DNA of 64,000 nt from Mycolicibacterium aubagnense. Lineage in GTDB: Bacteria; Actinomycetota; Actinomycetes; Mycobacteriales; Mycobacteriaceae. The position numbers and the translations under genes are program-made. Below the pieces are notes generated by a model that worked only from the letters and a program-made list of their open reading frames with translations, had not been told where the DNA came from and made no database searches. Position 1 is the first letter of the stretch. Each line of letters opens with the position of its first letter. Of this stretch, positions 12,734-62,759 are shown one piece after another. The DNA lies in assembly GCF_010730955.1 (NCBI RefSeq), contig NZ_AP022577.1, positions 186,001 through 250,000 on the forward strand, read 5' to 3'.

Positions 12734-12789
12734 ATGATTTGGAGAACTGATTCTTGGGGGTAGCGCCTTGTCGGTGGATGCGAGTAGTG

Positions 12790-12805
12790 TCGAACGTATG
12801 AGCGA
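12790..12805 (+). promoter_or_regulatory. Degenerate LexA box across the start codon of the HNH gene
   Basis: TCGAACGTATGAGCGA matches TCGAAC-N4-GTTCGA at 10 of 12 fixed positions; the ATG at 12798 sits in its centre. 13E12-type genes often have LexA boxes at this position. A -10-like TAGTGT (12785-12790) precedes it. Confidence 0.5.
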
Positions 12806-14068
12806 AAGCTCGGTGGTTGACCCGGACGCCGATGAGGGGGCGTTGCTGGGTCGGATCGCTGAGTTTGAGCGGGTGAAGGCGGCTGCGGCGGCGGGGCAGG
12901 CCCGGGCGGCGGCGGCACTTGAGGCGCGGCGGGTGGCGGTCGCGGCTGCAGGTGGGCTGCGGGTGTCGCGGGCGGCGTTGGGGTCGGAGGTGGGGTTGGC
13001 CCGGGGGGAGTCCCCGCACCGCGGTGAGCGGCTGGTGGCGATGGCCCGCATTCTGGTGGCTGATATGCCGTGCACGCTGGCCGCTCTGGAATCCGGCGTG
13101 CTGTCGGAGCATCGGGCTGAGCTGATCACCAAAGAGGCGGCGTGCCTGTCGGCATTGGATCGTCAACTTCTCGACGGTGAGCTCTGTGCGGACCCGGCCC
13201 CGTTGGAGGGGTTGGGGAACGCCGAGGTTTCGGCGGAAGCCGCGCGGATCGCCTATGAGTTGGATCAGCAGACCGTGTTGGAGAAGATGACGCGGGCGCG
13301 GGCCTCTCGGCACGTGCGGTTCCGGGTGGCCCGTGACGGCATGATGTCGATGACGGTGCTGCTGCCCGCTGCACAAGGTCAGCTGGTTCGGCAGACCGTC
13401 TCGCGCGAGGCAGCCACGGCCGTGGCTGCGGGGTCCGGGCGCAGCCGCCAGCAGGTCATGGCGGACGTCGTGGTGGAGCGAGTCACCGGACGCAATCCGG
13501 TCGAGACGCCGGTGCCGGTGACGGTCAACCTCGTGCTCTCCGATGAGACTCTGCTGACCGGGGGTGATGAGCCCGCGCAGTTGGACGGCTATGGGCCTAT
13601 TCCGGCGTCGCTGGCCCGCGACCTGGTGTTGGCCGCGGCGGCTGATGAGAAGGCGGGGGCCGCGTTACGGCGTTTGTATGCCCAGCCTGGGGCGAACAAG
13701 TTGGTGGCGATGGAGTCGAAGGCTCGGGCGTTTCCGAGGCGCTGGCTCGGTTCATCGCGCTGCGGGATCAGATGTGCCGGACCCCGTTCTGCAATGCCCG
13801 GATCCGGCACACCGACCACATCACCCCGCACCGCAGGACCGGGCCCACCAGTGCCCACAACGGCCAAGGGCTGTGTGAGCACTGCAATTACGTAAAAGAA
13901 CAACCCGGCTGGCACGCGGCCACGACCTATGACCGGCACGGCCGGCACACCGTCCAACTGACCACACCCACCGGTGCGGTCTACACCAGCACCGCACCAC
14001 CAGGGCCCGAAGCGCTACGCATCTTCACCCGCGATATCTACATCGCACGCGTCCACCCCGCGGCCTAA
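12798..14068 (+). pseudogene. DUF222/HNH endonuclease (13E12 type), frameshifted
   Basis: The DUF222 part reads in one frame from 12798 to about 13735 (MSESSVVDPDADEGALL to ESKARAFP). The expected continuation [12 protein letters not shown], then [20 protein letters not shown] with the HNH motif and tail, lies in a second frame to 14068. One missing base after CCG near 13736 explains this, most simply CCGGAG turned into CCGAG. Without the change the protein would be about 423 residues, normal for the family. These proteins are repeated in mycobacterial genomes and often SOS-controlled. The remaining 3' frame is intact, so the lesion is recent or a sequencing error. Confidence 0.85.
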
Positions 14069-50821: not shown

Positions 50822-53071
50822 ATGGGAACCGAGCCACGAGTGATCGCCGACGTCGGTGAAGACGGCCTGCATCTGCACGCCTGCTGTCTCTGTGAAGCCA
50901 TGTGCGGCTTGGAGATCCAGGTGGCCGACGGCAAGGTGGCGGGCATCCGGCCGAACAAGGCCGACGAGTGGAGCGCGGGCCACATCTGCCCGAAGGGCGC
51001 CTCGCTGGGTGCACTGCACGAGGACCCCGACCGGATCCGCCGGCCCATGATCAAGATCGACGGCGAGTGGCACGAGGTCGACTGGGACACCGCGTTCCGT
51101 CGCTGCACCGAACTGCTGGCACCCGTCATCGAGAAGCACGGCATCGGCGCGGTTACCGCGTACACCGGAAACCCACTGGCGCACTCGTTTTCGCTGTCGC
51201 GGTATGCGGCGATCCTGCTCGGCCTGTCCGGCATGCCGATCACGTATTCGCCGGGCACCATCGACCAGTGGCCCAAGAACCTGTCGTCGCACCTGATGTA
51301 CGGCAGCTGGTGGGCATTCCCGACACCCGACGTGCAGCGCACCGACCTGCTGGTGGTGATGGGCGCCAACCCCGCGGCGTCGCAGGGCTCGCTCCTCGCC
51401 GCGCCCGACATCATGGGCATCATCGGCGGAATCCGTAAGCGCGGCAAAGTGATCGTCATCGACCCGGTGCGAACCCAGACCGCAGCCAAGGCCGACGAGT
51501 GGCTGCCCATCACGCCAGGTACCGACGCGGCGCTGCTGCTGGGCGTCATCCACGTTGTGTTCGACGAAGGGCTCGTCAACCTCGGCCGGCTGGCGCGGCA
51601 TCTCGACGGAGTGCCCGAGCTGGAGCAGGCCGTCACCGACTGGTCGCCCGAAAGAGTCGCTGCCGCAACAGGTATCGGCGCCGAGCGGATTCGGCAACTG
51701 GCCCGCGAGCTGGCCGGCACGCCGCGCGCTGTCGTCTACGGCCGGATCGGCACCTGTAACCAGGAGTTCGGCAGCCTCGCCAGCTGGCTGATCGACGTCG
51801 TCAACATCGTCACCGGACACTTCGACGTGCCGGGCGGCGCGATGTTCGCGACCCCGACCGCCTGGACCGTCACCAGCCAGACCATCCCGGGCCTGGAGGA
51901 CGGGGCGCCCAACTTCGGCCGCTATCAGACCCGAGTCCGCGGGGCGAAAGAAGTGCTGGGTCAGGTACCCGTCTCCTGCATGCTCGAAGAGATCACCACG
52001 CCCGGCGAGGGCCAGCTCAAAGCACTGATCACGGTGGCGGGCAATCCCGTCCTGTCCACCCCGGGTGGCGACAAGCTGGACGAGGCGCTGGCGGGCCTGG
52101 ACGCGATGATCTCGGTGGACCTGTGGCTCAACGAGACCACTCGGCACGCCGACGTGATCCTGCCCGGCGCCTCGGCGCTCGAGCAGCCGCATTCGGCGGA
52201 CCTGCTGCTGGGCACGGCCATCAACAGCTTCGCCCGCTACTCGCCGCCGGTGTTCCACCGCGAGGACCCGGACGCGCCGGAAGAGTGGGAGATCCTCATC
52301 CGGCTGACCGGGCTGTGCACCGGCACCCCGGCCGAGGACGTCGACGTGGCCGCGCTCGATGACGGCTGGTTCGACTACCTGTGCTTCACCCAGGGGCTCG
52401 ACGGTGCTGAGATTCGGAAGAAGTACGACCACGGCGGCCCGGAGCGGATGCTCGACCTGACGCTGCGGACCGCCGCGTTCGGCGACCGGTATGGCGAGAA
52501 TCCCGACGGCCTGACGCTCGAGAAGCTCAAGGCCCACCCCGACGGCATCAACTACGGCCCGATGGTGCCACGCGTGCCGGAGATTCTGGCTACCTCGGAC
52601 CAGAAGATTCGTGTGGCCCCGCAGTATCTGCTCGACGACCTGCCGCGGTTGGCCTCGCGACTCGAGCGTCCCGATGACGAGCTGGTGCTGGTGAGCCGGC
52701 GGCATCTACGGTCCAACAACTCCTGGCTGCACAACGTCGGCGCGTTGATGAAGGGCCGCGACCGCTGCACGCTGCTGATGCACAGTCGCGACGCCGCCGC
52801 GCGGGGCATCGCGGACGGCGACACTGCCGAAGTCGCCTCGGGCGCAGGGAAGATCGTCGTCCCCGTCGAGGTGACCGACGCGATCAAGCCGGGCGTCGTG
52901 TCCATGCCGCACGGCTGGGGGCACGGGCAGTCCGGCACTCGGCTCGGGATCGCCAACGCGTCGCCCGGGGTGAATACCAACATCCTCTCGCTGCCGGACT
53001 TCATCGACGAGCCGTCCGGCAACGGGGCGCTCAACGGGATCCCGGTGACGGTGAGTGCGGTGGGGAGCTAG
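50822..53071 (+). CDS. Molybdopterin oxidoreductase, 4Fe-4S
   Basis: A 749-residue enzyme of the DMSO reductase/formate dehydrogenase family. N-terminal 4Fe-4S site with HACCLCEAMCGLE (Cys22-Cys30) and HICPKG near 60; then the two molybdopterin-guanine-dinucleotide domains (DLLVVMGANPAASQG; VIVIDPVRTQTAAKADEWLPITPGTDAALLLG; SVDLWLNETTRHADVILPGASALE) and the C-terminal molydopterin-binding barrel (LVLVSRRHLRSNNSWLHN). No Tat signal, so it is cytoplasmic. Substrate not predictable. It stands alone; no partner subunit is near. Confidence 0.92.
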   Translation: MGTEPRVIADVGEDGLHLHACCLCEAMCGLEIQVADGKVAGIRPNKADEWSAGHICPKGASLGALHEDPDRIRRPMIKIDGEWHEVDWDTAFRRCTELLAPVIEKHGIGAVTAYTGNPLAHSFSLSRYAAILLGLSGMPITYSPGTIDQWPKNLSSHLMYGSWWAFPTPDVQRTDLLVVMGANPAASQGSLLAAPDIMGIIGGIRKRGKVIVIDPVRTQTAAKADEWLPITPGTDAALLLGVIHVVFDEGLVNLGRLARHLDGVPELEQAVTDWSPERVAAATGIGAERIRQLARELAGTPRAVVYGRIGTCNQEFGSLASWLIDVVNIVTGHFDVPGGAMFATPTAWTVTSQTIPGLEDGAPNFGRYQTRVRGAKEVLGQVPVSCMLEEITTPGEGQLKALITVAGNPVLSTPGGDKLDEALAGLDAMISVDLWLNETTRHADVILPGASALEQPHSADLLLGTAINSFARYSPPVFHREDPDAPEEWEILIRLTGLCTGTPAEDVDVAALDDGWFDYLCFTQGLDGAEIRKKYDHGGPERMLDLTLRTAAFGDRYGENPDGLTLEKLKAHPDGINYGPMVPRVPEILATSDQKIRVAPQYLLDDLPRLASRLERPDDELVLVSRRHLRSNNSWLHNVGALMKGRDRCTLLMHSRDAAARGIADGDTAEVASGAGKIVVPVEVTDAIKPGVVSMPHGWGHGQSGTRLGIANASPGVNTNILSLPDFIDEPSGNGALNGIPVTVSAVGS

Positions 53072-53127: not shown

Positions 53128-54369
53128 CTATGCCGCGATGGTGTCGAGTCGCAGGGTGCGTCGGTTGTAGGTCGGGATGGGCCTGCGGTGTGGGTCGACG
53201 GTGGTTGGTGGGATGAGCCAGGGGTGTTTGTCCAGTCCCATGACGACGTCCCAGCCGTCGTGGTGGATGTTGGCGTGGCAGGCCGGGCACAGCAGGCACC
53301 CGTTGTTCAGGCTGGTTTCGCCGTCGTGGGTCCAGTGCACGATGTGGTGGGCATGGGTGCGCCCGGGCGGTGCACCGCATTTGATGCAGCATTGATCCCG
53401 CAGATACAGCGCTTTGCGTAGAGGCGCCGGGAACAGGCGTTTGTCCCGACCGACATCGAGTGGTACCTGCTCGCCGTCCACGATGACTGTCGTGACGGTG
53501 GTGTCGCAGGTCAGCCGGTCCAGGGTCAGGGTGCTGATTGATCCCATGAACGCTAACTCCGCCAGGTCCGGGGTGTCGGCGGGCACCGTTACCAACAGTT
53601 GGGTGCGCGGCGCGGACGCGATATCGCCGCCGCGGGCCGCGATATCCAACACCGCCTCCAGGGCGTCCGCGCGTCGCCTCCCCGCGGAGCGGGTGTCGGG
53701 GCTGCCGTCGGGTTCAGGGCGGGGTGCGGACAGCTCATCCATCGCGGCCGCGAGTTTGGCGCCCACTTCGGCGTCCAGATCCGCGCGTACATGTAGCCGG
53801 CCGTCGCTGGTCACTCGGTGGTCGACTGTGTTGATGGACCGGTCCTCGGCCGCGGGCAGACCCCCAGTCGCGGCGGCGTGCCGGTTGCCGAGCCGGCGGG
53901 CCCGAGCACCGATCTCCGCCGGGGTGGCCCCGGAGAAGAACTGTCCGAGAAGATCCGTGACCTGACCGAACCGGGCCTCCTCGTCCGGCGGGTCGGGGGA
54001 GCGTGCCGCGATGTGGTTGACGCCCTTGACGATCGCGTCGACATGTTCCCCCGAGATCGCGCCGTCGCCGGCATGTGCGGCCAGGGTGGGCAGTGCCGGC
54101 AACGCAGCAGCGACCCGTACCAGCCGCTCGGCGACCGCGGGTGCGCACCCCAGCGCGATCAGCAGCTCCCGCGGCGTCCGCCCCTGCGAGGCGGCCACCC
54201 CACGCCGATCCAGGGCGCCCGCCACTGTTGCCGCTAGATGATCAACCACGTTCTGCAGCACGGCAAGCATGCGCATCGACTCCAACGCGTCATCTCCAGC
54301 CAGGTCGTCGGGGACGTGCACGCCTCGGATGGCGTCGAGGCTGGTGGTGAGACGCTGCGTGATTCCCAT
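53128..54369 (-). CDS. DUF222/HNH endonuclease (13E12 type), SOS-controlled
   Basis: A 413-residue intact relative of the pseudogene at 12798. DUF222 helical part about 20-300 (LQNVVDHLAATVAGALDRRGVAAS; AGDGAISGEHVDAIVKGVNHIA) and C-terminal HNH nuclease: CIKCGAPPGRTHAHHIVHWTHDG, then ETSLNNGCLLCPACHANIHHDGW with zinc Cys and catalytic His-Asn-His. The start is ATG 54369, 5 nt after the -10 box, so the mRNA is leaderless; longer frames to 54594 would cross the promoter. Confidence 0.9.
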   Translation of the reverse strand: MGITQRLTTSLDAIRGVHVPDDLAGDDALESMRMLAVLQNVVDHLAATVAGALDRRGVAASQGRTPRELLIALGCAPAVAERLVRVAAALPALPTLAAHAGDGAISGEHVDAIVKGVNHIAARSPDPPDEEARFGQVTDLLGQFFSGATPAEIGARARRLGNRHAAATGGLPAAEDRSINTVDHRVTSDGRLHVRADLDAEVGAKLAAAMDELSAPRPEPDGSPDTRSAGRRRADALEAVLDIAARGGDIASAPRTQLLVTVPADTPDLAELAFMGSISTLTLDRLTCDTTVTTVIVDGEQVPLDVGRDKRLFPAPLRKALYLRDQCCIKCGAPPGRTHAHHIVHWTHDGETSLNNGCLLCPACHANIHHDGWDVVMGLDKHPWLIPPTTVDPHRRPIPTYNRRTLRLDTIAA

Positions 54370-54403: not shown

Positions 54404-54505
54404 GAGGTGATGTCGAGGAGAAAGCAATCACCGAGATTTGAAATGTCGGGCGATTTCATGGTGGCGCAATAGCCCCTGAAGCCCCGGTTTGTGCAGGTCA
54501 CGCGC

Positions 54506-54531
54506 GTACCTGGGCGGCGCAATGCAGGTAC
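54506..54531. promoter_or_regulatory. Inverted repeat, candidate GntR operator
   Basis: GTACCTG (54506-54512) and CAGGTAC (54525-54531) are perfect inverted copies around 12 nt; a further CAGGTCA half-site lies at 54494-54500. It is 62 bp upstream of the GntR start at 54593. Confidence 0.5.
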
Positions 54532-54592: not shown

Positions 54593-55333
54593 ATGTCCTC
54601 GACCGACCCGACCCCGCTGCGCCGGCGCGCCGACCGCGCCCGCCAGGTCGCCGACGTGTTGCGGCACCAGGTGCGCGACGGGGTCTACGCGGACGGCCTG
54701 CCTGGCGAGGCTACGTTGGTGGCGGAGTTCTCGGTGTCCCGCAATACCGTGCGCGAGGCCTTGACGATCCTCAAGGCCGAGGGGCTGATCGACCGCGGCC
54801 CGCGGGTCGGCACTCATGTGGCGCAGCGCAAGTACGACCACGGGTTGCACGCGCTGGTCGGGCTGAAGGAGACCTTCAAGGACTATGGCGAGGTCCGCAA
54901 CGAGGTCCGCGCCGCGACGCCAATCCCCGCGCCCGCGGCCGTGGCGCGCCGACTGCAGCTGAATCCCGGCGAGCCTGTCGTGTTCATCGAGCGGCTCCGT
55001 TACCTGGGTGACCTGCCGCTGAGCCTCGACCTGACCTACCTCGCGCCTGACATCGGCACCGCGGTGCTCGAGCACTCGCTGGAGACCAACGACGTGTTCG
55101 CGTTGATCGAGCAGGTCACCGCACAGCGGTTGGGTTCGGCGGATATTGCACTGGAAGCGGTTTCGGCCGATCCGCACACCGCGGCCACCCTGGACATCCC
55201 GGCCGGTGGAGCGATTCTGATGCTCGAACGCCTCACCACACTCGACGACGGGCGTCCCGTCGACCTCGAATACATCCGCCTGCGTGGTGACCGAATCACC
55301 ATGCGCGGCAACCTGTTACGGAGTGAATCATGA
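54593..55333 (+). CDS. GntR family regulator (HutC subfamily, UTRA domain)
   Basis: A 246-residue regulator. Winged helix at about 15-80 (VADVLRHQVRDGVYADGLPGEATLVAEFSVSRNTVREALTILKAEGLIDRGPRVGTHVA) and UTRA ligand domain at about 90-240 (LQLNPGEPVVFIERLRYLGDLPLSLDLTYL ... GGAILMLERLTTLDDGRPVDLEYIRLRGDR). It leads an operon of six genes all overlapping or nearly so (the ferredoxin start overlaps its stop), so it probably controls the transporter and redox enzyme according to a sulfur-containing or related small ligand. Confidence 0.92.
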   Translation: MSSTDPTPLRRRADRARQVADVLRHQVRDGVYADGLPGEATLVAEFSVSRNTVREALTILKAEGLIDRGPRVGTHVAQRKYDHGLHALVGLKETFKDYGEVRNEVRAATPIPAPAAVARRLQLNPGEPVVFIERLRYLGDLPLSLDLTYLAPDIGTAVLEHSLETNDVFALIEQVTAQRLGSADIALEAVSADPHTAATLDIPAGGAILMLERLTTLDDGRPVDLEYIRLRGDRITMRGNLLRSES

Positions 55334-55560
55334 CGCTGGTCAACAACCAACGCGCCGATGTGCCGGTCACGATCGACGAGTCGCTGTGTATCGAGGGCTG
55401 CACCCTGTGTGTCGACGTCTGCCCGCTGGACTCGCTGGCCATCAACCCCGACAACGGCAAGGCCTACATGCACGTCGACGAGTGTTGGTACTGCGGCCCG
55501 TGTGCCGTCCGCTGCCCAACCGGTGCCGTCTCCGTCAACATGCCGTACCTCATCCGCTAA
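55330..55560 (+). CDS. AprB-like 4Fe-4S dicluster ferredoxin
   Basis: A 76-residue protein with two cluster sites: CIEGCTLCVDVCP (Cys-x3-Cys-x2-Cys-x3-Cys-Pro, one residue longer than the usual first gap) and ECWYCGPCAVRCPTGAVSVNMPY. The second matches the C-terminal cluster site of adenylylsulfate reductase beta subunits (AprB). It would pass electrons to or from the flavoprotein encoded downstream. ATG overlaps the GntR stop. Confidence 0.88.
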   Translation: MTLVNNQRADVPVTIDESLCIEGCTLCVDVCPLDSLAINPDNGKAYMHVDECWYCGPCAVRCPTGAVSVNMPYLIR

Positions 55561-55568
55561 GGACTCTC

Positions 55569-57002
55569 ATGAAACTTGTCCGGTTCTCTACGCTGGCGGC
55601 CGCCGTCGTGCTGGCCGCCGCCGGCTGCTCGGTCGATTCGGCCGGCAAGGACGACAACGTCGTCAACGTGGTCGTCGGCTACCAGTCCAAGACCATCAAC
55701 ACCGTCACCGCCGGGACTTTGCTTCGTGCGCAGGGATATTTGGAACATCGGCTCAGCGACATAACTTCTAAGACCGGCAAGAAGTACCACGTCGAATGGC
55801 AGGACTACGACACCGGTGCGCCGATCACCGCTCAGATGGTCGCCGAGAAGATCGACATCGGTTCCATGGGTGACTACCCGATGCTGATCAACGGCTCCAA
55901 GACCCAGGGCAACGAACGTGCCAAGACCGAACTCGTGTCGGTCACCGGGTCGAGCCCCACGGGTTCGCTGAACATGGTTGTGGTGTCGCCGGATTCGCCG
56001 ATCCAGTCGCTGAGTCAACTCGCCGGGCAGAAGGTGTCGGCCAGCGTGGGGTCGGCCGGTCACGGCACGCTGGTCCGGGCGCTGTCGAAGAACGGCATCG
56101 ACCCGAAGACCGGCGTCGAGGTGCTCAACCAGCAACCGCAGATCGGTGCGTCGGCACTGGAATCCGGCCAGGTCAAGGCACTTTCGCAGTTCGTCGCCTG
56201 GCCGGGACTGCTGGTCTTCCAGAACAAGGCCCGACTGCTGTACGACGGAGCCGAGCTGAACTACCCGACATGGCACGGCGTCGTCGTACGACGGGCCTAC
56301 GCCGGGGCACATCCCGAGGTGCTCGACGCCTTCCTGCAGGCACAGCTCGATGCCACCGATTTCCTCAACACCAAACCACTGGAAGCGACCCGGATCGTTG
56401 CGGAGGGCAGCGGCCTGCCGCAGGAGGTCGTCTACCTGTACAACGGCCCCGGTGGTACCCGGTTCGACACCACGCTGAAGCCGTCGCTGGTCGATGCGCT
56501 GAAAGGTGATGTGCCGTACCTGAAGTCGATCGGCGACTTCGCCGACCTGGATGTCAACGCGTTCGTCCAGGACGAACCGCTGCGCAATGCGTTGGCCGAG
56601 CGGGGTCGCGACTACAACGCCGAGGTCGCCCGCACCGTCAATCCGTCGGTGGTGCACGGCACCGATCCGGTGTGCAACATCGCGGTCGACAACCCGGCGC
56701 TCGCCGGTGAATTGTGGCTGGACGGCTCGGACACCACGCAGCCGGCGGCCAACCCGACCTGCCTGCTCAAGGCGATCAGGGCCGCAGAGGACAAGGGCAC
56801 CAAGGTCCGTGCCGCCTACGTCCCGGACGCGGAGTTCGGAACCCGTTGGCTGGCAGACAAATCCGTGTGGGTCCAGTTGAACACAGGCGAGGGCACCAAG
56901 TTTTTCCCATTCGACACCGCGGCCGGCGCCCACCGGTACCAGGCGGCCCATCCCGGTTCGTCGGTGGTGACCTATCAGCAGGCTCTGGTGGGTGCGGCAT
57001 GA
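55569..57002 (+). CDS. ABC transporter substrate-binding lipoprotein with NosL-like C-terminal part
   Basis: A 477-residue lipoprotein. Signal peptide MKLVRFSTLAAAVVLAAAGC with lipobox LAAAGC (Cys20). Residues about 30-360 are a sulfonate/nitrate/taurine-type binding fold (VVGYQSKTINTVTAGTLLRAQGYLEHRL; KIDIGSMGDYPMLINGSK; SLSQLAGQKVSASVGSAGHGTLVRAL). The last about 113 residues are extra: DPVCNIAVDNPA then AYVPDAEFGTRWLADKSVWVQLNTGEGTKFFPFDTAAGAHRYQAAHPGSSVVTYQQAL, which looks like NosL copper-binding/accessory domains. ATG 55569. Followed by ATGA overlap with the permease. Confidence 0.88.
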   Translation: MKLVRFSTLAAAVVLAAAGCSVDSAGKDDNVVNVVVGYQSKTINTVTAGTLLRAQGYLEHRLSDITSKTGKKYHVEWQDYDTGAPITAQMVAEKIDIGSMGDYPMLINGSKTQGNERAKTELVSVTGSSPTGSLNMVVVSPDSPIQSLSQLAGQKVSASVGSAGHGTLVRALSKNGIDPKTGVEVLNQQPQIGASALESGQVKALSQFVAWPGLLVFQNKARLLYDGAELNYPTWHGVVVRRAYAGAHPEVLDAFLQAQLDATDFLNTKPLEATRIVAEGSGLPQEVVYLYNGPGGTRFDTTLKPSLVDALKGDVPYLKSIGDFADLDVNAFVQDEPLRNALAERGRDYNAEVARTVNPSVVHGTDPVCNIAVDNPALAGELWLDGSDTTQPAANPTCLLKAIRAAEDKGTKVRAAYVPDAEFGTRWLADKSVWVQLNTGEGTKFFPFDTAAGAHRYQAAHPGSSVVTYQQALVGAA

Positions 57003-57853
57003 CGGCCATAGCCGCGGTTGTGGCCGCACCCACCCGCACTGCCGCGGCCGAGGTGTCGCGGCGGCGTGGGCCGGCGAAATGGCGCAGTTACGCAATCAAG
57101 GCGCTGTCGGTCATTGCGGCCGTGGGCATCTGGCAGCTGCTGACCGCCAATCACATCCGGTTCTGGCTGCGGTTCGACAATCTGCCGACCGTGACCCAGA
57201 TCGCTGCGAAATTTGTCGAGCGGCTGGGCGCCACGCAGTACTGGCTGGACCTGACGCAGTCGGTGATCCGGATCGTCAGTGGTTTCGGAATTGCGGCGGT
57301 GATCGGTGCGGCCACCGGTATCGCGCTCGGCCGGTCACGGCTGTTCGCCGACATCGTCGGCCCGCTGACCGAGCTGGCTCGTCCGATCCCGGCCATCGCG
57401 CTGGTGCCGGTTGCCATCCTGCTGTTTCCGACCGACGAGGCCGGCATCGTGTTCATCACGTTCCTGGCGGCGTTCTTCCCGATCATGGTCAGCACCCGGC
57501 ACGCCGTGCGGGCTCTGCCGACGCTGTGGGAGGACTCGGTGCGGACCCTCGGCGGCAGTCGCTGGGATGTGTTGCGGCAGGTCGTGTTCCCGGGGGTGCT
57601 GCCCGGGCTGTTCGGCGGCCTGTCGGTCGGCATGGGGGTGGCCTGGATCTGTGTGGTGTCCGCGGAGATGATCTCGGGCAGGCTCGGCGTCGGCTACCGG
57701 ACCTGGCAGGCCTACACCGTGCTGGATTACCCGAGCGTCTTCGTCGGCATCATCACCATCGGCGCTTTGGGTTTCGGTACGTCGGCCGCGGTGGAGCTGA
57801 TCGGCCGGCGGCTGACGCGCTGGCTGCCGCGTGGTGAGGAGCATGGGCGATGA
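56999..57853 (+). CDS. ABC transporter permease (sulfonate/taurine type)
   Basis: A 284-residue permease of the SsuC/TauC type with six predicted helices and the EAA loop region WEDSVRTLGGSRWDVLRQVVFPGVLPGLFGGLSVGMGVAWICVVSAEMI. Start ATG 56999 overlaps the binding-protein stop. Its own stop TGA (57851-57853) overlaps the first ATG of the 32-bp tandem repeat, so the ATPase is translated through a chain of minigenes. Confidence 0.92.
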   Translation: MTAIAAVVAAPTRTAAAEVSRRRGPAKWRSYAIKALSVIAAVGIWQLLTANHIRFWLRFDNLPTVTQIAAKFVERLGATQYWLDLTQSVIRIVSGFGIAAVIGAATGIALGRSRLFADIVGPLTELARPIPAIALVPVAILLFPTDEAGIVFITFLAAFFPIMVSTRHAVRALPTLWEDSVRTLGGSRWDVLRQVVFPGVLPGLFGGLSVGMGVAWICVVSAEMISGRLGVGYRTWQAYTVLDYPSVFVGIITIGALGFGTSAAVELIGRRLTRWLPRGEEHGR

Positions 57854-57921
57854 GCGCTTGCGCGAAGAGCAGAGGGCACAGATGAGCGCTTGCGCGAAGA
57901 GCAGAGGGCACAGATGAGCGC
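57849..57921 (+). repeat. 32-bp tandem repeat forming two coupled 11-codon minigenes
   Basis: Exact units at 57849-57880 and 57881-57912 plus a 9-bp partial third (57913-57921). Each unit begins GATGAGCGCTTGCGCGAAG. ATG 57850 and ATG 57882 each open MSACAKSRGHR followed by TGA (57883-57885, 57915-57917), so permease, minigene 1, minigene 2 and ATPase are joined by three successive ATGA overlaps. This resembles MIRU elements. Confidence 0.85.
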
Positions 57922-58669
57922 AGTACAAGCAGAGCCCAAGATTGCCGGCCTGCGCCTGGAACTCGACCGAATCCGGTTGTCCTACACCGGTGAACCGGTC
58001 GTGGACGGACTGAGCCTGACGGTCCAGCCGGGAGAAATTCTGGTGCTGACGGGCCCTTCGGGCTGCGGCAAGTCGACGGTGCTACGGGCGCTGGCCGGGC
58101 TGCTCAAGCCCGACGCCGGCCGGGTCCTCGCCGACGGCACACTCGTGACCACCACGTCGCGTGACCGTGGCATGGTGTTCCAGGACAGTGCGTTGTTGCC
58201 CTGGCGCACAGTGCGATCCAACATCGAGCTGGCGCTGCAGTTGCGCGGTGTGCCGCGTGCCGGGCGCCGAGAACGCGCCGAACGGTGGATCGACGAGGTC
58301 GGGCTCACCGGGTTCGCCGACTTCCTGCCGAAGAGCCTGTCCGGCGGTATGCGCCAGCGGGTCCAGCTGGCGCGCGGCCTGGCCGGGGCGCCGCGGGCCG
58401 TCCTGATGGACGAGCCGTTCGGCGCGCTGGACGCCAAGATCCGAACCGCCATGCAGCACTTGCTGATCGGCACCTGGCAGGCCCATCCGACCACCGTCGT
58501 CTTTGTCACCCATGACGTCGACGAAGCCCTCGCCCTGGGTGACCGCGTGGCGGTCCTCGGCCGCGCCGGCCAGCCGCTGCGCGCCCTGCTGGATGTGCCG
58601 AGCCCCCGTGATGCTGATGTCTCCCGCACCGAGCTGCGGGCCGAAATCCTTGGAGCACTACACCAATGA
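57914..58669 (+). CDS. ABC transporter ATP-binding protein (sulfonate/taurine type)
   Basis: A 251-residue ATPase. Walker A LTGPSGCGKSTVLRALAG, Q-loop MVFQDSALLPWRTVRSNIELAL, signature SGGMRQRVQLARGLAG, Walker B AVLMDEPFGALDAKIR, H-loop VFVTHDVDEALALGD: all as in SsuB/TauB. ATG 57914 is the third ATG in the tandem repeat and is chosen because the protein then matches family length; the upstream in-frame start at 57890 would run through repeat sequence. ATGA overlap with the flavoprotein gene. Confidence 0.93.
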   Translation: MSAVQAEPKIAGLRLELDRIRLSYTGEPVVDGLSLTVQPGEILVLTGPSGCGKSTVLRALAGLLKPDAGRVLADGTLVTTTSRDRGMVFQDSALLPWRTVRSNIELALQLRGVPRAGRRERAERWIDEVGLTGFADFLPKSLSGGMRQRVQLARGLAGAPRAVLMDEPFGALDAKIRTAMQHLLIGTWQAHPTTVVFVTHDVDEALALGDRVAVLGRAGQPLRALLDVPSPRDADVSRTELRAEILGALHQ

Positions 58670-61377
58670 GCACCCTCGAGATCCCTGATCTCGTCAACCC
58701 CGTCCGCCTGGACTGTGACGTCCTGGTGATCGGCGGTGGTACCGCCGGCACCATGGCCGCCCTGACCGCCGCCGAGAACGGCGCCCAGGTACTTCTGCTC
58801 GAGAAGGCCCACGTGCGGCACTCCGGCGCGCTGGCCATGGGCATGGACGGCGTCAACAACGCCGTCGTCCCGGGCAAGGCCACCCCGGAGGACTACGTCG
58901 CCGAGATCACCCGGGCCAACGACGGAATCGTCAACCAGCGCACCATCTATCAGACCGCGACGCGCGGCTTCGCCATGGTGCAGCGGCTGGAACGGTACGG
59001 CGTCAAGTTCGAGAAGGACGAGCACGGCGAGTACGCGGTGCGCCGCGTGCACCGCTCCGGCTCGTATGTGCTGCCGATGCCCGAGGGCAAGGACGTCAAG
59101 AAGGCGCTGTACCGCGTGATGCGGCAGAAGTCCATCCGGGAGAAGCTGCGCATAGAGAACCGGCTGATGCCGGTACGTGTGCTGACAGAGAACGGGCGCG
59201 CGGTGGGCGCGGCCGCCTTCAACACGCGCACAGGAGAATTCGTCACGGTGGGTGCCAAGGCCGTCATCCTCGCCACCGGGGCCAGCGGCCGGCTCGGCCT
59301 GCCCGCATCGGGCTACCTGTACGGCACGTACGAGAATCCCTGCAACGCCGGCGACGGATACTCCATGGCCTACCACGCGGGGGCGGAACTGTCGGGCATC
59401 GAGTGCTTCCAGGTGAACCCGCTGATCAAGGACTACAACGGACCCGCGTGCGCCTACGTCGCCAATCCTTTCGGCGGATACCAGGTGAACGCGCTGGGGG
59501 AGCGGTTCGTCGACTCCGACTACTGGTCGGGCCAGATGATGTCTGAAGTGAAGAGCGAGATCGAATCGGCCCGCGGGCCGATCTACCTCAAGGTCACCCA
59601 TCTGCCGGACGAGACCATCACCGCGATGGAGAACATCCTGCACACCACCGAGCGGCCGACGCGCGGCACCTTCCACGCGAACCGCGGCCACGACTACCGG
59701 ACCCACGACATCGAGATGCACATCTCCGAGATCGGCTTGTGCAGTGGGCATTCCGCGTCCGGGGTGTGGGTGGACGAGCATGCCCGCACCACCGTGCCAG
59801 GCCTCTACGCGGCCGGCGACATGGCGTGCGTGCCGCACAACTACATGATCGGAGCGTTCGTCTACGGTGACCTCGCCGGCGAGCACGCCGCTTCGACTCT
59901 CGCCGATGTCGAAGCGCCCGTGGATCTTCCGCAGGATCAGCTGGCCGAGGCGCACGAGTTGATCTACCGTCCGCTGCGGCATCCAGACGGACCGCCGCAG
60001 CCGCAGGTCGAGTACAAGTTGCGCCGCTTCGTCAATGACTATGTGGCGCCGCCGAAGACGGCGACCAAACTGTCGATCGCGGTCCGCACCTTCGAGCGCA
60101 TGGCCGCGGAGATCGAGCAGATGGGCGCTCGTACGCCGCATGAGCTGATGCGGACGGTCGAGGTGTCGTTCATCCGGGACTGCGCGGAGATGGCGGCGCG
60201 GTCGTCGCTGACGCGGACCGAATCGCGGTGGGGGCTGTACCACGATCGCGCCGACATTCCCGAGCGAGATGACGAAGAGTGGCGCTATCACCTGAACCTG
60301 CGCAAGGACGCGAACGGGGAGATGGAGTTCCTGAAGCGGCCGGTGGCACCGTATTTCGTGCCGGTGCCCGATCTGGACCACCTGCCGTCGGACCACGCGG
60401 TGCAGCATGTACACCAGCCGGACCTCGTCGGTGGCAAGGCGCCGGCGACGGCGGGATCGCGCCTGCGTCCCACCGAGCCGACGACGCCGCCGTCGCCGCG
60501 GATCGCGGCCGTGGTGGCCCTGGAGGAGCCGACGCTCTCCGACCTGGCCGCGTACCTGCAGGACGCCGACGGCGGGGTCCGGCGAGCCGCTGTCGCGGTG
60601 CTGGTGGAGAACCTGCCGGACGGCTACCAGCCCGACCTGGTCGCTGCCCTCGGCGACGCGGACGGCGCGGTGCGGGGCGCGGCCGCCGACGCGCTTCGCG
60701 AGCTGGTCGAGGTGCTGCCCGATCCGGCGGCGGTCGCCCCGTACCTGACGTCCGCTGACCCGGTCGTGCGAGCGGTGACGGTGTACGTCCTCAGTTCGCG
60801 CCGCGCCGGTGCGGCCCCGGATTACCGTGCCGCGGTGACCGATTCCGACCACCGGGTGCGGATCGAGGCGGTGCGTGCGCTGGTATCCGTTGATGACGTC
60901 GACGGCGTGGCCGCAGCCGCGGCCGATGACAACCGTGAGGTGCGGATTGCTGCGGGCAACGGCCTGGCCACGCTGCAATCCGGTGCGGACACCGTGCGGC
61001 AGCTGTTGGCCGACCGGGACCCGCTGGTGCGGGCGGCCGCGTTGGCCGCGCTGGCTGCCGTCGGTTGCGCCGAGCAGGACGTGCCGGAAGTGCAACGCGC
61101 CCTTCGGGAATCAGCGTGGCAGATTCGGCAGGGCGCCGTGCGGGCACTGTCCGGCGCGGCTCCGGCGGTCGCCGTCGAACCGCTGTCGCAGGCGCTGCAC
61201 GACCCGCACCTGGACGTGCGTAAGGCCGCCGTGCTCAGCCTGACCCGGTGGGCCGATTCCGAGGAGTCCGCCCGCGCGGCGCTCGGGATCGCGCTGGAAG
61301 ACGGTGACGCCGACGTACGGGCCTATGCGCGTCACGCGCTCGGCGCCGCAGCCCGGCATGCGCTCGCGACCTCCTGA
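58666..61377 (+). CDS. AprA-like flavoprotein with C-terminal HEAT repeats
   Basis: A 903-residue protein. Residues 1 to about 590 are a fumarate reductase/AprA-type flavoprotein: FAD site DVLVIGGGTAGTMAALTAAENGAQVLLLEKA (about 19-48), RHSGALAMGMDGVNNAVVPG, ILATGASGRLGLP, GVWVDEHARTTVPGLYAAGDMACVPHNYMIGAFVYGDLAGEHA. Residues about 615-903 are a series of at least seven PBS-lyase-type HEAT repeats (A-D-x-x-V-R-x-A-A-x-x-A-L). With the AprB-like ferredoxin it suggests a sulfur-oxyanion oxidoreductase, but fumarate reductase-like activity on another substrate is possible. Its 3' end overlaps the convergent amidase by 46 bp. Confidence 0.9.
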   Translation: MSTLEIPDLVNPVRLDCDVLVIGGGTAGTMAALTAAENGAQVLLLEKAHVRHSGALAMGMDGVNNAVVPGKATPEDYVAEITRANDGIVNQRTIYQTATRGFAMVQRLERYGVKFEKDEHGEYAVRRVHRSGSYVLPMPEGKDVKKALYRVMRQKSIREKLRIENRLMPVRVLTENGRAVGAAAFNTRTGEFVTVGAKAVILATGASGRLGLPASGYLYGTYENPCNAGDGYSMAYHAGAELSGIECFQVNPLIKDYNGPACAYVANPFGGYQVNALGERFVDSDYWSGQMMSEVKSEIESARGPIYLKVTHLPDETITAMENILHTTERPTRGTFHANRGHDYRTHDIEMHISEIGLCSGHSASGVWVDEHARTTVPGLYAAGDMACVPHNYMIGAFVYGDLAGEHAASTLADVEAPVDLPQDQLAEAHELIYRPLRHPDGPPQPQVEYKLRRFVNDYVAPPKTATKLSIAVRTFERMAAEIEQMGARTPHELMRTVEVSFIRDCAEMAARSSLTRTESRWGLYHDRADIPERDDEEWRYHLNLRKDANGEMEFLKRPVAPYFVPVPDLDHLPSDHAVQHVHQPDLVGGKAPATAGSRLRPTEPTTPPSPRIAAVVALEEPTLSDLAAYLQDADGGVRRAAVAVLVENLPDGYQPDLVAALGDADGAVRGAAADALRELVEVLPDPAAVAPYLTSADPVVRAVTVYVLSSRRAGAAPDYRAAVTDSDHRVRIEAVRALVSVDDVDGVAAAAADDNREVRIAAGNGLATLQSGADTVRQLLADRDPLVRAAALAALAAVGCAEQDVPEVQRALRESAWQIRQGAVRALSGAAPAVAVEPLSQALHDPHLDVRKAAVLSLTRWADSEESARAALGIALEDGDADVRAYARHALGAAARHALATS

Positions 61378-62759
61378 ATCCTGGCGAACGGTCGCTCGGC
61401 CTCCAGCAGGAAGGCCAGTTCGAGCAGAGTGCGCTCGTCCCCGTAGGCGGCGGACAGTTGGACGCCCACGGGCAGGCCGTCCGGGGACCGGTGCAGCGGC
61501 AGTGAGATCGCCGGCGTGCCCGCGATGTTGTTGAGCGGGGTGTACGCGACATACCGGCGCAGGCGGTCGATGAGGACGGGGAAGTCGACCGTCGGCGAAA
61601 GGTGTCCGATGCGGGGCGTGGTGTGCGAAAGCACCGGGGAGAGCACGGCTTCGTGCCGTGCGAACATCCGCGCGTACTGCGCGGCGACGCCGCGCAGGCG
61701 CAGCAGCGCGCCCGGGGTTCGGTGCAGATTCCGGCGGTGATGCGCGCGCAGCCCCAGGCTGAGGCCGTCGGCCCTGCCGGCGTCGAACGACCGGTCCAGG
61801 ATCAACCGGCCGGTGCCGACCGCGAGGTCGGCGAGCAGCGCCCAGTATTGGACGAAGTCGTCGGCGAACTGGGATGTGACGGGCAGCGTGATGGGTTCGA
61901 CGACGTGACCGGCGGCCTCCAGCAGCGCCGCGGTGTCTTCGACGGCCGCCCGGGTGGCGTCGTCGACCGACTCACCGGTGACGCTGTCGAACAGCACGCC
62001 GATACGAAGGGTCCGCTGCGCCGGCCCGCACACCCGGCCGATGGGCACGAGTGTCGGATTGCGCCAATGGTTCTCGCACGCGGCGAGGTACGTCGCGGTG
62101 TCGCGGACGCTACGGGTCAGGACGCCCTCGGAGATCATGTTGATCGGCAGGTGGCTGACCTGCTCGCCGTCGCGGTGCCGGCCGCGGCTCGGTTTGAGCC
62201 CGACCAGGCCCGCGCAGGCGGCGGGGATCCGGATGGAGCCACCGCCGTCGTTGGCGTGCGCGATGGGCACGACGCCGGCCGCGACCAGCGCCGCCGATCC
62301 GCCGGACGAAGCACCGACGGAGTACTCGGTGTGCCAGGGGTTTCGGACCGGCTCCTCGGTCATGTACTCGGTGGTGGCGTTGAAACCGAATTCGGGCATC
62401 CGGGTCTTGCCGATCAGCGTCATGCCGGCACTGAGGAACTGCGTCGCGTAGACGCCGTCCTTCTTCGCGGGACCGGCTGTGAACGCCTCCGAACCGTGCG
62501 TGGTCGGCAAGCCTGCGACGTCGGTGTTGTCCTTGATGAACGTTGGGACGCCGAAGAATTCGGCGTCCGGATCGGTGCTGTGGCGCGGTGTCGTCTCGCA
62601 GGCCACCGCCCGCAGCGTGGGGTCGACGAGCTGTGCGCGGGCTGTCGCCGCAGCCGCCAGCTCGTCGGGGCTGACCTGCATGTCGCGAACCAACCGGGAG
62701 AGGCCGACGGCGTCGTGGTCGCCGAGCGCGTCATCGCCGAAGGCGTGGATGGTTGACAT
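61332..62759 (-). CDS. Amidase signature family hydrolase
   Basis: A 475-residue enzyme with the Ser-cisSer-Lys triad: Lys76 (FIKDNTDVAG), cis-Ser151/152 in GASSGGSAALVAAGVVP, and nucleophile Ser175 in DGGGSIRIPAACAGLVGLKPSRGR. Similar to 6-aminohexanoate-cyclic-dimer hydrolase-like and mycobacterial AmiA/AmiC enzymes; the amide substrate is unknown. ATG 62759, 8 bp after the lactone oxidase stop on the same strand, so the two probably share an mRNA. The 46-bp tail overlap with the HEAT-flavoprotein is the longest convergent overlap in the window. Confidence 0.9.
   Translation of the reverse strand: MSTIHAFGDDALGDHDAVGLSRLVRDMQVSPDELAAAATARAQLVDPTLRAVACETTPRHSTDPDAEFFGVPTFIKDNTDVAGLPTTHGSEAFTAGPAKKDGVYATQFLSAGMTLIGKTRMPEFGFNATTEYMTEEPVRNPWHTEYSVGASSGGSAALVAAGVVPIAHANDGGGSIRIPAACAGLVGLKPSRGRHRDGEQVSHLPINMISEGVLTRSVRDTATYLAACENHWRNPTLVPIGRVCGPAQRTLRIGVLFDSVTGESVDDATRAAVEDTAALLEAAGHVVEPITLPVTSQFADDFVQYWALLADLAVGTGRLILDRSFDAGRADGLSLGLRAHHRRNLHRTPGALLRLRGVAAQYARMFARHEAVLSPVLSHTTPRIGHLSPTVDFPVLIDRLRRYVAYTPLNNIAGTPAISLPLHRSPDGLPVGVQLSAAYGDERTLLELAFLLEAERPFARIQEVASACRAAAPSA

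Follow-up and report, generated by a model that had tools for sequence, protein, structure and literature searches.

We analysed a stretch of 64,000 nucleotides from Mycolicibacterium aubagnense (contig NZ_AP022577.1, positions 186,001 to 250,000; referred to here as the window), in which six genes on the plus strand at 54593-61377 encode, in this order, a GntR/UTRA regulator, a ferredoxin, a binding protein, a permease, an ATPase and a flavoprotein (Table 1). The initial annotation had described an AprB-like ferredoxin, a complete sulfonate/taurine-type ATP-binding cassette (ABC) importer and an AprA-like flavoprotein lying in a single run, and this arrangement is borne out: the six genes share one orientation, and the operon is confirmed as real. 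The wording that start and stop codons overlap at almost every junction was slightly generous, as three of the five junctions are 4-bp ATGA overlaps and the other two are gaps of 8 and 60 bp. Additionally, the locus has three features absent from that description, namely HEAT repeats on the flavoprotein, a NosL-like domain on the binding protein and a two-box element upstream of the first gene. The 60-bp gap, which follows the permease gene, stems from a 32-bp tandem repeat (57849-57921; 2.3 copies, 100% match) that duplicates the start region of the ATPase gene; locus L032, which is 95% identical, has overlapping permease and ATPase matches.

Table 1. Genes, domains and upstream boxes of the operon (positions in the window; cut-offs are those of the respective models).
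Feature	Position	Strand	Remarks
Upstream element, box 1 (GGTGGCGCAAT)	54460..54470	+	exact GGYGGCGCAAT match
Upstream element, middle box CAGGTC	54494..54499	+	from an alignment of 58 loci pre-picked by boxes 1 and 2
Upstream element, box 2 (GGCGGCGCAAT)	54513..54523	+	53 bp from box 1
GntR-type regulator with UTRA domain	54593..55333	+	246 residues; UTRA 5.2e-33, GntR 2.1e-15 (Pfam)
Two-[4Fe-4S] ferredoxin, AprB/PAPSR-beta-like	55330..55560	+	76 residues; invariant Trp53
SsuA/TauA-like binding protein	55569..57002	+	477 residues; lipoprotein-like N-terminus; NMT1-type by Pfam
NosL-like C-terminal domain of binding protein	56673..56978	+	16.6 bits, E 0.01 (cut-off 24)
ABC permease (BPD_transp_1)	56999..57853	+	Pfam
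ABC ATPase	57914..58669	+	taurine ATP-binding subunit as nearest NCBIfam model (213.1 bits, under cut-off 357)
AprA-like FAD protein fused to HEAT repeats	58666..61377	+	903 residues; NF010374/PRK13800; FAD_binding_2, Succ_DH_flav_C and HEAT
HEAT-repeat domain of flavoprotein	60496..61371	+	residues about 611-902; HEAT_2 4.9e-27

What recurs is a conserved cassette: a sulfonate-type importer together with an AprAB-like ferredoxin and flavoprotein whose active site is divergent. Among the actinobacterial loci sampled (the best 80 of 581 confirmed, all with an organism name), 74 carry the six genes in the same order, every gap being shorter than 300 bp in 72 of those 74, and the operon is thus no chance association. 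Five of the six incomplete loci lack genes at the start of the available stretch, mostly at contig ends (L041, L048, L056 and L069, and also L077, where the ferredoxin lies at the stretch edge and no GntR match was found); the sixth, a short contig of a metagenome-assembled genome (L061), holds the ferredoxin and flavoprotein without importer genes. Occasional irregularities were seen, such as permease and ATPase genes standing about 1.5 kb apart (L079), a spacing of about 2.4 kb from binding protein to permease (L107), and a flavoprotein match without its N-terminal part in one genome (G031). The closest named flavoproteins within the best 80 of 581 belong to Mycobacterium and Mycolicibacterium records and are 92-95% identical. 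More widely, 7997 scored candidates include 6407 relatives of the flavoprotein at E <= 1e-60; 51 plasmid records carry it at the same threshold, as do 14 of 61 related genomes at E <= 1e-200 and 9 of 296 genomes sampled across the phylum at E <= 1e-150.

The pairing with an importer had been pointed out for an aerobic mycobacterium; it is not peculiar to mycobacteria, since the operon core recurs on proteobacterial and cyanobacterial plasmids, these two groups being reached through plasmids only. All 18 loci sampled from the 51 plasmid loci have ferredoxin and flavoprotein within the same stretch, and 15 of them, in three phyla, also hold a complete SsuA-type importer, the exceptions being Nostoc, Acidithiobacillus caldus and M. 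japonicum pMLa. The HEAT repeats form a separate gene in the 17 plasmid loci outside the actinobacteria (17/17), and a DUF971/GBBH-like or Mrp-type gene occurs in 13 of the 18. The cassette is apparently undescribed: we recognised no description of it in the open-access literature of PubMed Central (PMC), a scope from which subscription papers are largely excluded. An alkane sulfonate transporter operon, Bphy_7232-37, is reported to have lower expression in a nifA mutant (PMC8305402); that operon could not be matched to the present one, and the 51 plasmid records include none from P. phymatum.

The flavoprotein scores above the cut-offs of two families, NF010374/PRK13800 (1706.3 bits against 1196) and NF006131/PRK08275 (887 against 587), both of unknown role and carrying no name beyond "fumarate reductase/succinate dehydrogenase flavoprotein subunit". 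Its best match among solved structures is, however, the alpha subunit of a methanogen 3'-phosphoadenylylsulfate (PAPS) reductase (PAPSR; 8a8o_A, E 2.8e-63), followed by AprA, from the adenylylsulfate (APS) reductase of Archaeoglobus (1jnr_A, 2.2e-33), and then by SdhA (4.3e-27). We built a tree of 28 rows, comprising 13 family members, 12 AprA and PAPSR-like proteins and three outgroups from the own genome that pass their cut-offs, namely SdhA (995 bits), a PRK07803-type succinate dehydrogenase/fumarate reductase (SDH/FRD; 1245) and NadB (720), with no FrdA or TfrA row. In this tree the family forms a clade (99/98) that is sister to the AprA and PAPSR-like clade (100/99), and the two together are split from the three SdhA/NadB-type rows at 100/100. 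According to a warning from the tree program, these joins bring long branches together, and for that reason the sister placement seems good but not certain. Scores of the methanogen protein itself (MtPAPSR, P0121) are consistent with the tree, being 888 bits for PRK06854, 397 for AprA, 312 for PRK08275 and 130 for SdhA/FrdA. Because the tree places the protein with AprA and PAPSR and not with SdhA and NadB, the family name appears to mislead, and the earlier description of the flavoprotein as AprA-like is upheld; a placement outside the AprA branch with conserved fumarate residues was looked for and did not occur. Equating the pair with AprAB itself captured the kinship and the outline and went too far in the rest, as the flavoprotein belongs to a sister clade of its own, reaches 146.8 bits where the AprA (TIGR02061) cut-off is 641.75, also misses the PRK06854 cut-off, and lacks two arginines of AprA. 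The structure model of the flavoprotein is poor (mean predicted local distance difference test score, pLDDT, 63) and confident over the HEAT part only.

These arginines emerged from an active-site alignment of 99 family members (80 actinobacterial, 18 plasmid and the window) with 10 PAPSR-like and two AprA rows, numbered after A. fulgidus AprA. N74, R265, R317 and H398 are taken as active-site residues of AprA, with R265 near the sulfonyl group. N74, H398 and D268 are retained in 99/99 family members and K267 in 98/99. R265 is replaced by Leu and R317 by Met in all 99, with Arg at both in the 12 reference rows; the R317 column adjoins gaps and fell in a gap in a smaller alignment, and the nearby YWSGQMM is without Arg in the three family rows printed. 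Two further replacements are universal in the family (W234 to Tyr and G274 to Cys, each 99/99), and Q145 is Arg in 85 members and His in 14. The MtPAPSR study names glutamine 145 as conserved and states that the enzyme keeps the catalytic residues that have been proposed (PMC10322725). That the operon encodes an ordinary AprAB or PAPS reductase whose substrate is APS or PAPS, the sulfonate importer next to it being unrelated, agrees with a PAPS reductase being the nearest solved relative; it is nonetheless barely credible in view of these replacements, the missed AprA and PRK06854 cut-offs, and an importer that accompanies the enzyme in 15/18 plasmid loci and stands in order in 74/80 actinobacterial ones.

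A similar picture emerges for the fumarate reductases. In the smaller alignment the family has FQVNP where the SDH/FRD-type protein of the own genome (L002) has IQFHP, and YWSGQMM where it has LPRDEVARAI, positions that presumably correspond to substrate residues of SDH/FRD, and the SdhA-type stretches around the substrate are not conserved in the family. Judged from these alignments, the family pocket looks like that of neither an APS/PAPS reductase nor a fumarate reductase, and a role as APS/PAPS reductase or as canonical fumarate reductase is very unlikely for the flavoprotein. A looser use of the same fold, by which the flavoprotein would reduce a C=C bond or similar group of an imported sulfur-free anion much as fumarate reductases do, is better placed, though we consider it somewhat unlikely. 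The FAD_binding_2/Succ_DH_flav_C fold is common to fumarate reductases, both AprA arginines are lost, and binding proteins with the fold seen here also bind nitrate, bicarbonate, thiamine precursors and pyrroloquinoline quinone; these points have to be set against the grouping apart from the three SdhA/NadB-type rows, the differences from L002 and an enrichment of sulfur-related neighbours (see below).

The small ferredoxin retains its cluster cysteines and a single tryptophan, Trp53, in 12/12 rows from three phyla, and its CW-x-C motif aligns with the CW motif of Desulfovibrio AprB. A tryptophan is proposed to take part in electron transfer in the PAPS reductase study (PMC10322725). The protein scores 30.7 bits for AprB (TIGR02060; cut-off 135.65), and a profile of its family matches several polyferredoxins best, AprB not being among the six matches at E <= 1e-10. 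The ferredoxin alone is therefore no proof of an AprB origin, and calling it AprB-like holds as a resemblance to AprB and the PAPSR beta subunit. Taken as a pair, flavoprotein and ferredoxin appear AprAB-like in fold and in their probable electron path.

Genes for electron supply were found at two of the 18 plasmid loci, and we count them in favour of a reductive direction: in Methylobacterium radiotolerans, fdxA and ferredoxin-NADP reductase genes come after the transporter genes, and the A. caldus cluster contains fdxA. On the A. caldus plasmid pTcM1 a 1153-residue oxidoreductase with one Pfam match (Pyr_redox_2; L113:10574-14032) lies after the cluster and is a possible electron donor. The cyanobacterial loci are joined by Mrp/NBP35-type genes, pointing to Fe-S supply. 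Alternatively, the enzyme could run oxidatively, for instance by converting an imported reduced sulfur anion to a sulfonyl product for protection or energy. Dissimilatory APS reductase is reversible according to PMC10322725, and TSUP, TauE/SafE or sulfate-exporter-type genes adjoin four plasmid loci, but the same study gives the reverse reaction of MtPAPSR as not measurable, the reductase and FdxA genes in M. radiotolerans suggest electron input, and importing a toxic anion makes little sense; we regard an oxidative role as quite improbable.

The fold of the binding protein is closest to that of SsuA/TauA. The sulfonate contacts reported for X. citri SsuA include Gln36, Gly68, Gly86 and Ser141 (PMC3839906). 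The equivalents of Gln36 and Gly68 are invariant in 17/17 binding-protein rows, and the position of Gly86 holds Gly or Ala. These SsuA-type ligand positions, taken with the sulfur-related neighbours, would favour an organosulfur anion. At two cyanobacterial loci (L118:5310-7343 and L133:6679-8676, minus strand) LysR regulators of 678 and 666 residues carry a C-terminal NMT1-type domain and perhaps sense the same ligand.

The C-terminal domain of the binding protein raises the question of metals. For NosL (PF05573, cut-off 24 bits) the window scores 16.6, Cupriavidus 18.1, Acinetobacter 24.2 and Leptolyngbya 34.4. The domain is absent from the rows of a fold search that barely tests that part, and a PF05573 search of the own genome gave no match, the window's domain being below detection there. 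A system that handles copper or another metal complex, in which the NosL-like domain passes on a metal that the flavoprotein reduces, would fit the two of three scanned plasmid homologues that reach the cut-off, as well as TonB-dependent receptors near two loci. Such a role is highly improbable all the same, as no Cys, Met or His of the domain is invariant across 17 rows, the window and Cupriavidus fall under the cut-off, and the ligand cleft is SsuA-like.

The neighbours of the core point to sulfur. By product name, sulfur-related genes flank it in 9 of the 18 annotated plasmid loci, among them sulfonate-binding proteins, TSUP or TauE/SafE, a sulfate exporter, TauA/SsuD, luciferase-type monooxygenases, mercaptopropionate dioxygenase and rhodanese. 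As a control, windows were cut from one 50-kb stretch, placed by the analyst, on each of 8 of the 18 plasmids, and only one of about 24 held a sulfur cluster (hpsNO, Cupriavidus). The enrichment of 9/18 over 1/24 corresponds to a Fisher p of 0.0008, and on the same 8 plasmids the comparison is 6/8 with 1/24 (p 0.0002).

Upstream of the GntR gene lie two direct copies of GGYGGCGCAAT, 53 bp apart and with CAGGTC between them; the window holds 2 exact copies where 0.15 are expected. In 74 upstream regions, including that of the window, 39 pairs of GGCGCA are spaced at 53 or 54 bp, about five helical turns, against 7 over the remaining spacings between 21 and 119 bp, though the 39 are not independent events because the loci are related. 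A relaxed search gave candidates in 65 loci, of which 58 were aligned and seven poorer ones dropped, so that part of the box conservation reflects selection. Across 61 genomes, 10 of the 14 with the operon carry a single copy of the relaxed element, which by the coordinates precedes the flavoprotein match by 4.0 to 4.7 kb in every case, and none of the 47 lacking the operon carries it. A genome-wide regulon was considered and dropped, the own genome having one copy only, and a scan of viral contigs for the element found none. A structured RNA was also rejected: there is no Rfam match up to E 10 and no compensatory change or covariation in the consensus fold, and a hairpin named by hand pairs in 38.3% of cells and does not outdo shuffles. 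With no RNA-like covariation or hairpin signal, we prefer a DNA element, the operon's own putative operator, most likely for the GntR protein. Direct repeats are unusual for operators of the GntR family. Being specific to the operon, the element could serve as a reporter that reveals the inducer and hence the substrate.

We tentatively propose, with slightly less than even confidence, that the operon takes up a small sulfonate-type organosulfur anion and breaks it down reductively. The lipoprotein would capture the anion, and the permease and ATPase would import it. In the cytosol, electrons from a cellular reductant would pass through the two ferredoxin clusters and the tryptophan to the flavin adenine dinucleotide (FAD) of the AprA-like subunit. 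The flavin would then reduce the substrate, probably with its N5 attacking sulfur in the way put forward for AprA and PAPS reductase, and sulfite or some other assimilable sulfur species would be released. The HEAT repeats may hold the complex together or dock the donor, and the GntR/UTRA protein would control the operon through the two-box element. The initial annotation had likewise suggested a path for an imported organosulfur or similar anion; its outline appears right, the binding protein and neighbours making the organosulfur link plausible, but the equation with AprAB is wrong.

Several observations weigh against this proposal. R265, an arginine in 12/12 AprA and PAPSR-like rows, is Leu in 99/99 family members, and with it replaced a sulfite-adduct mechanism is not assured. 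The binding protein stays below the cut-offs for SsuA_fam (122.7 bits against 163.5) and TauA (68.5 against 304.25), nitrate and bicarbonate proteins nearly equal SsuA in fold score, and where SsuA has Ser141 the window has Ala and the other rows printed have Ala or Thr. Two SsuD-like genes also occur in the own genome (467 and 438 bits, under the 518-bit cut-off). Half of the plasmid loci (9/18) are without a sulfur neighbour and 3/18 without a complete importer in the stretch, and the neighbour counts rest on a keyword list drawn up after the loci had been viewed and on a plasmid collection whose annotation is incomplete. With simple gene calling, no gene family occurs in the flanks of more than 31 of the 81 actinobacterial loci, the window included.

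A bolder version of the organosulfur proposal, which we consider unlikely, is an oxygen-independent desulfonation in aerobic bacteria of three phyla, often on plasmids, in which a flavoenzyme fed by ferredoxin would cleave an imported sulfonate by way of a flavin-N5 adduct at sulfur. If true, it would be an alternative to the SsuD/TauD oxygenases and the glycyl-radical lyases.

Around the operon, a search for a conserved extra neighbour in actinobacteria was given up, the widest flanking clusters having the look, by eye, of serine hydrolases (31 loci) and GNAT proteins (18). On one side, a gene on the minus strand (53131-54369), presumably of the DUF222/HNH type, adjoins the operon, with a similar-looking protein at 12768-13895, and beyond it lies a molybdopterin oxidoreductase (50822-53071; best NCBIfam model formate dehydrogenase alpha, 200 bits against a cut-off of 666) with a similar gene in 5 of 81 loci. 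On the other side, an amidase-like gene, named by eye, is convergent with the operon (61335-62759, minus). Annotated amidase and GNAT genes adjoin the system on Nostoc (L112) and Methylocystis (L117) plasmids.

Most of the named flavoprotein relatives among those listed are labelled fumarate reductase/succinate dehydrogenase, and if the organosulfur proposal is correct, a widespread route of sulfur acquisition is annotated as fumarate reductase. By score the window protein is indeed a member of PRK13800 and PRK08275 (1706 and 887 bits), but it groups with AprA and PAPSR, not with SdhA and NadB. Invariant Leu253, Cys262 and Met291 with a fixed His362 offer a concrete definition of a third group beside the APS and PAPS reductases. 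The family shares with MtPAPSR (Methanothermococcus thermolithotrophicus, PDB ID: 8a8o; PMC10322725) an FAD subunit, a two-cluster ferredoxin subunit and the ferredoxin Trp. It also keeps the equivalents of N74, H398 and the K267-D268 pair, and differs in lacking both AprA arginines, which MtPAPSR-like rows keep, and in having fused or partnered HEAT repeats and an importer. AprAB of the Archaeoglobus and Desulfovibrio types resembles it in fold, in probable electron path and as the sister clade, whereas the window protein reaches about 147 bits of the 642-bit AprA cut-off, has changed APS-site positions and is paired with an importer. As in SsuABC and TauABC, the importer has three parts, with the equivalents of SsuA Gln36 and Gly68 invariant; unlike them, it misses the family cut-offs, carries an extra NosL-like domain and has no SsuD or TauD in the core operon.

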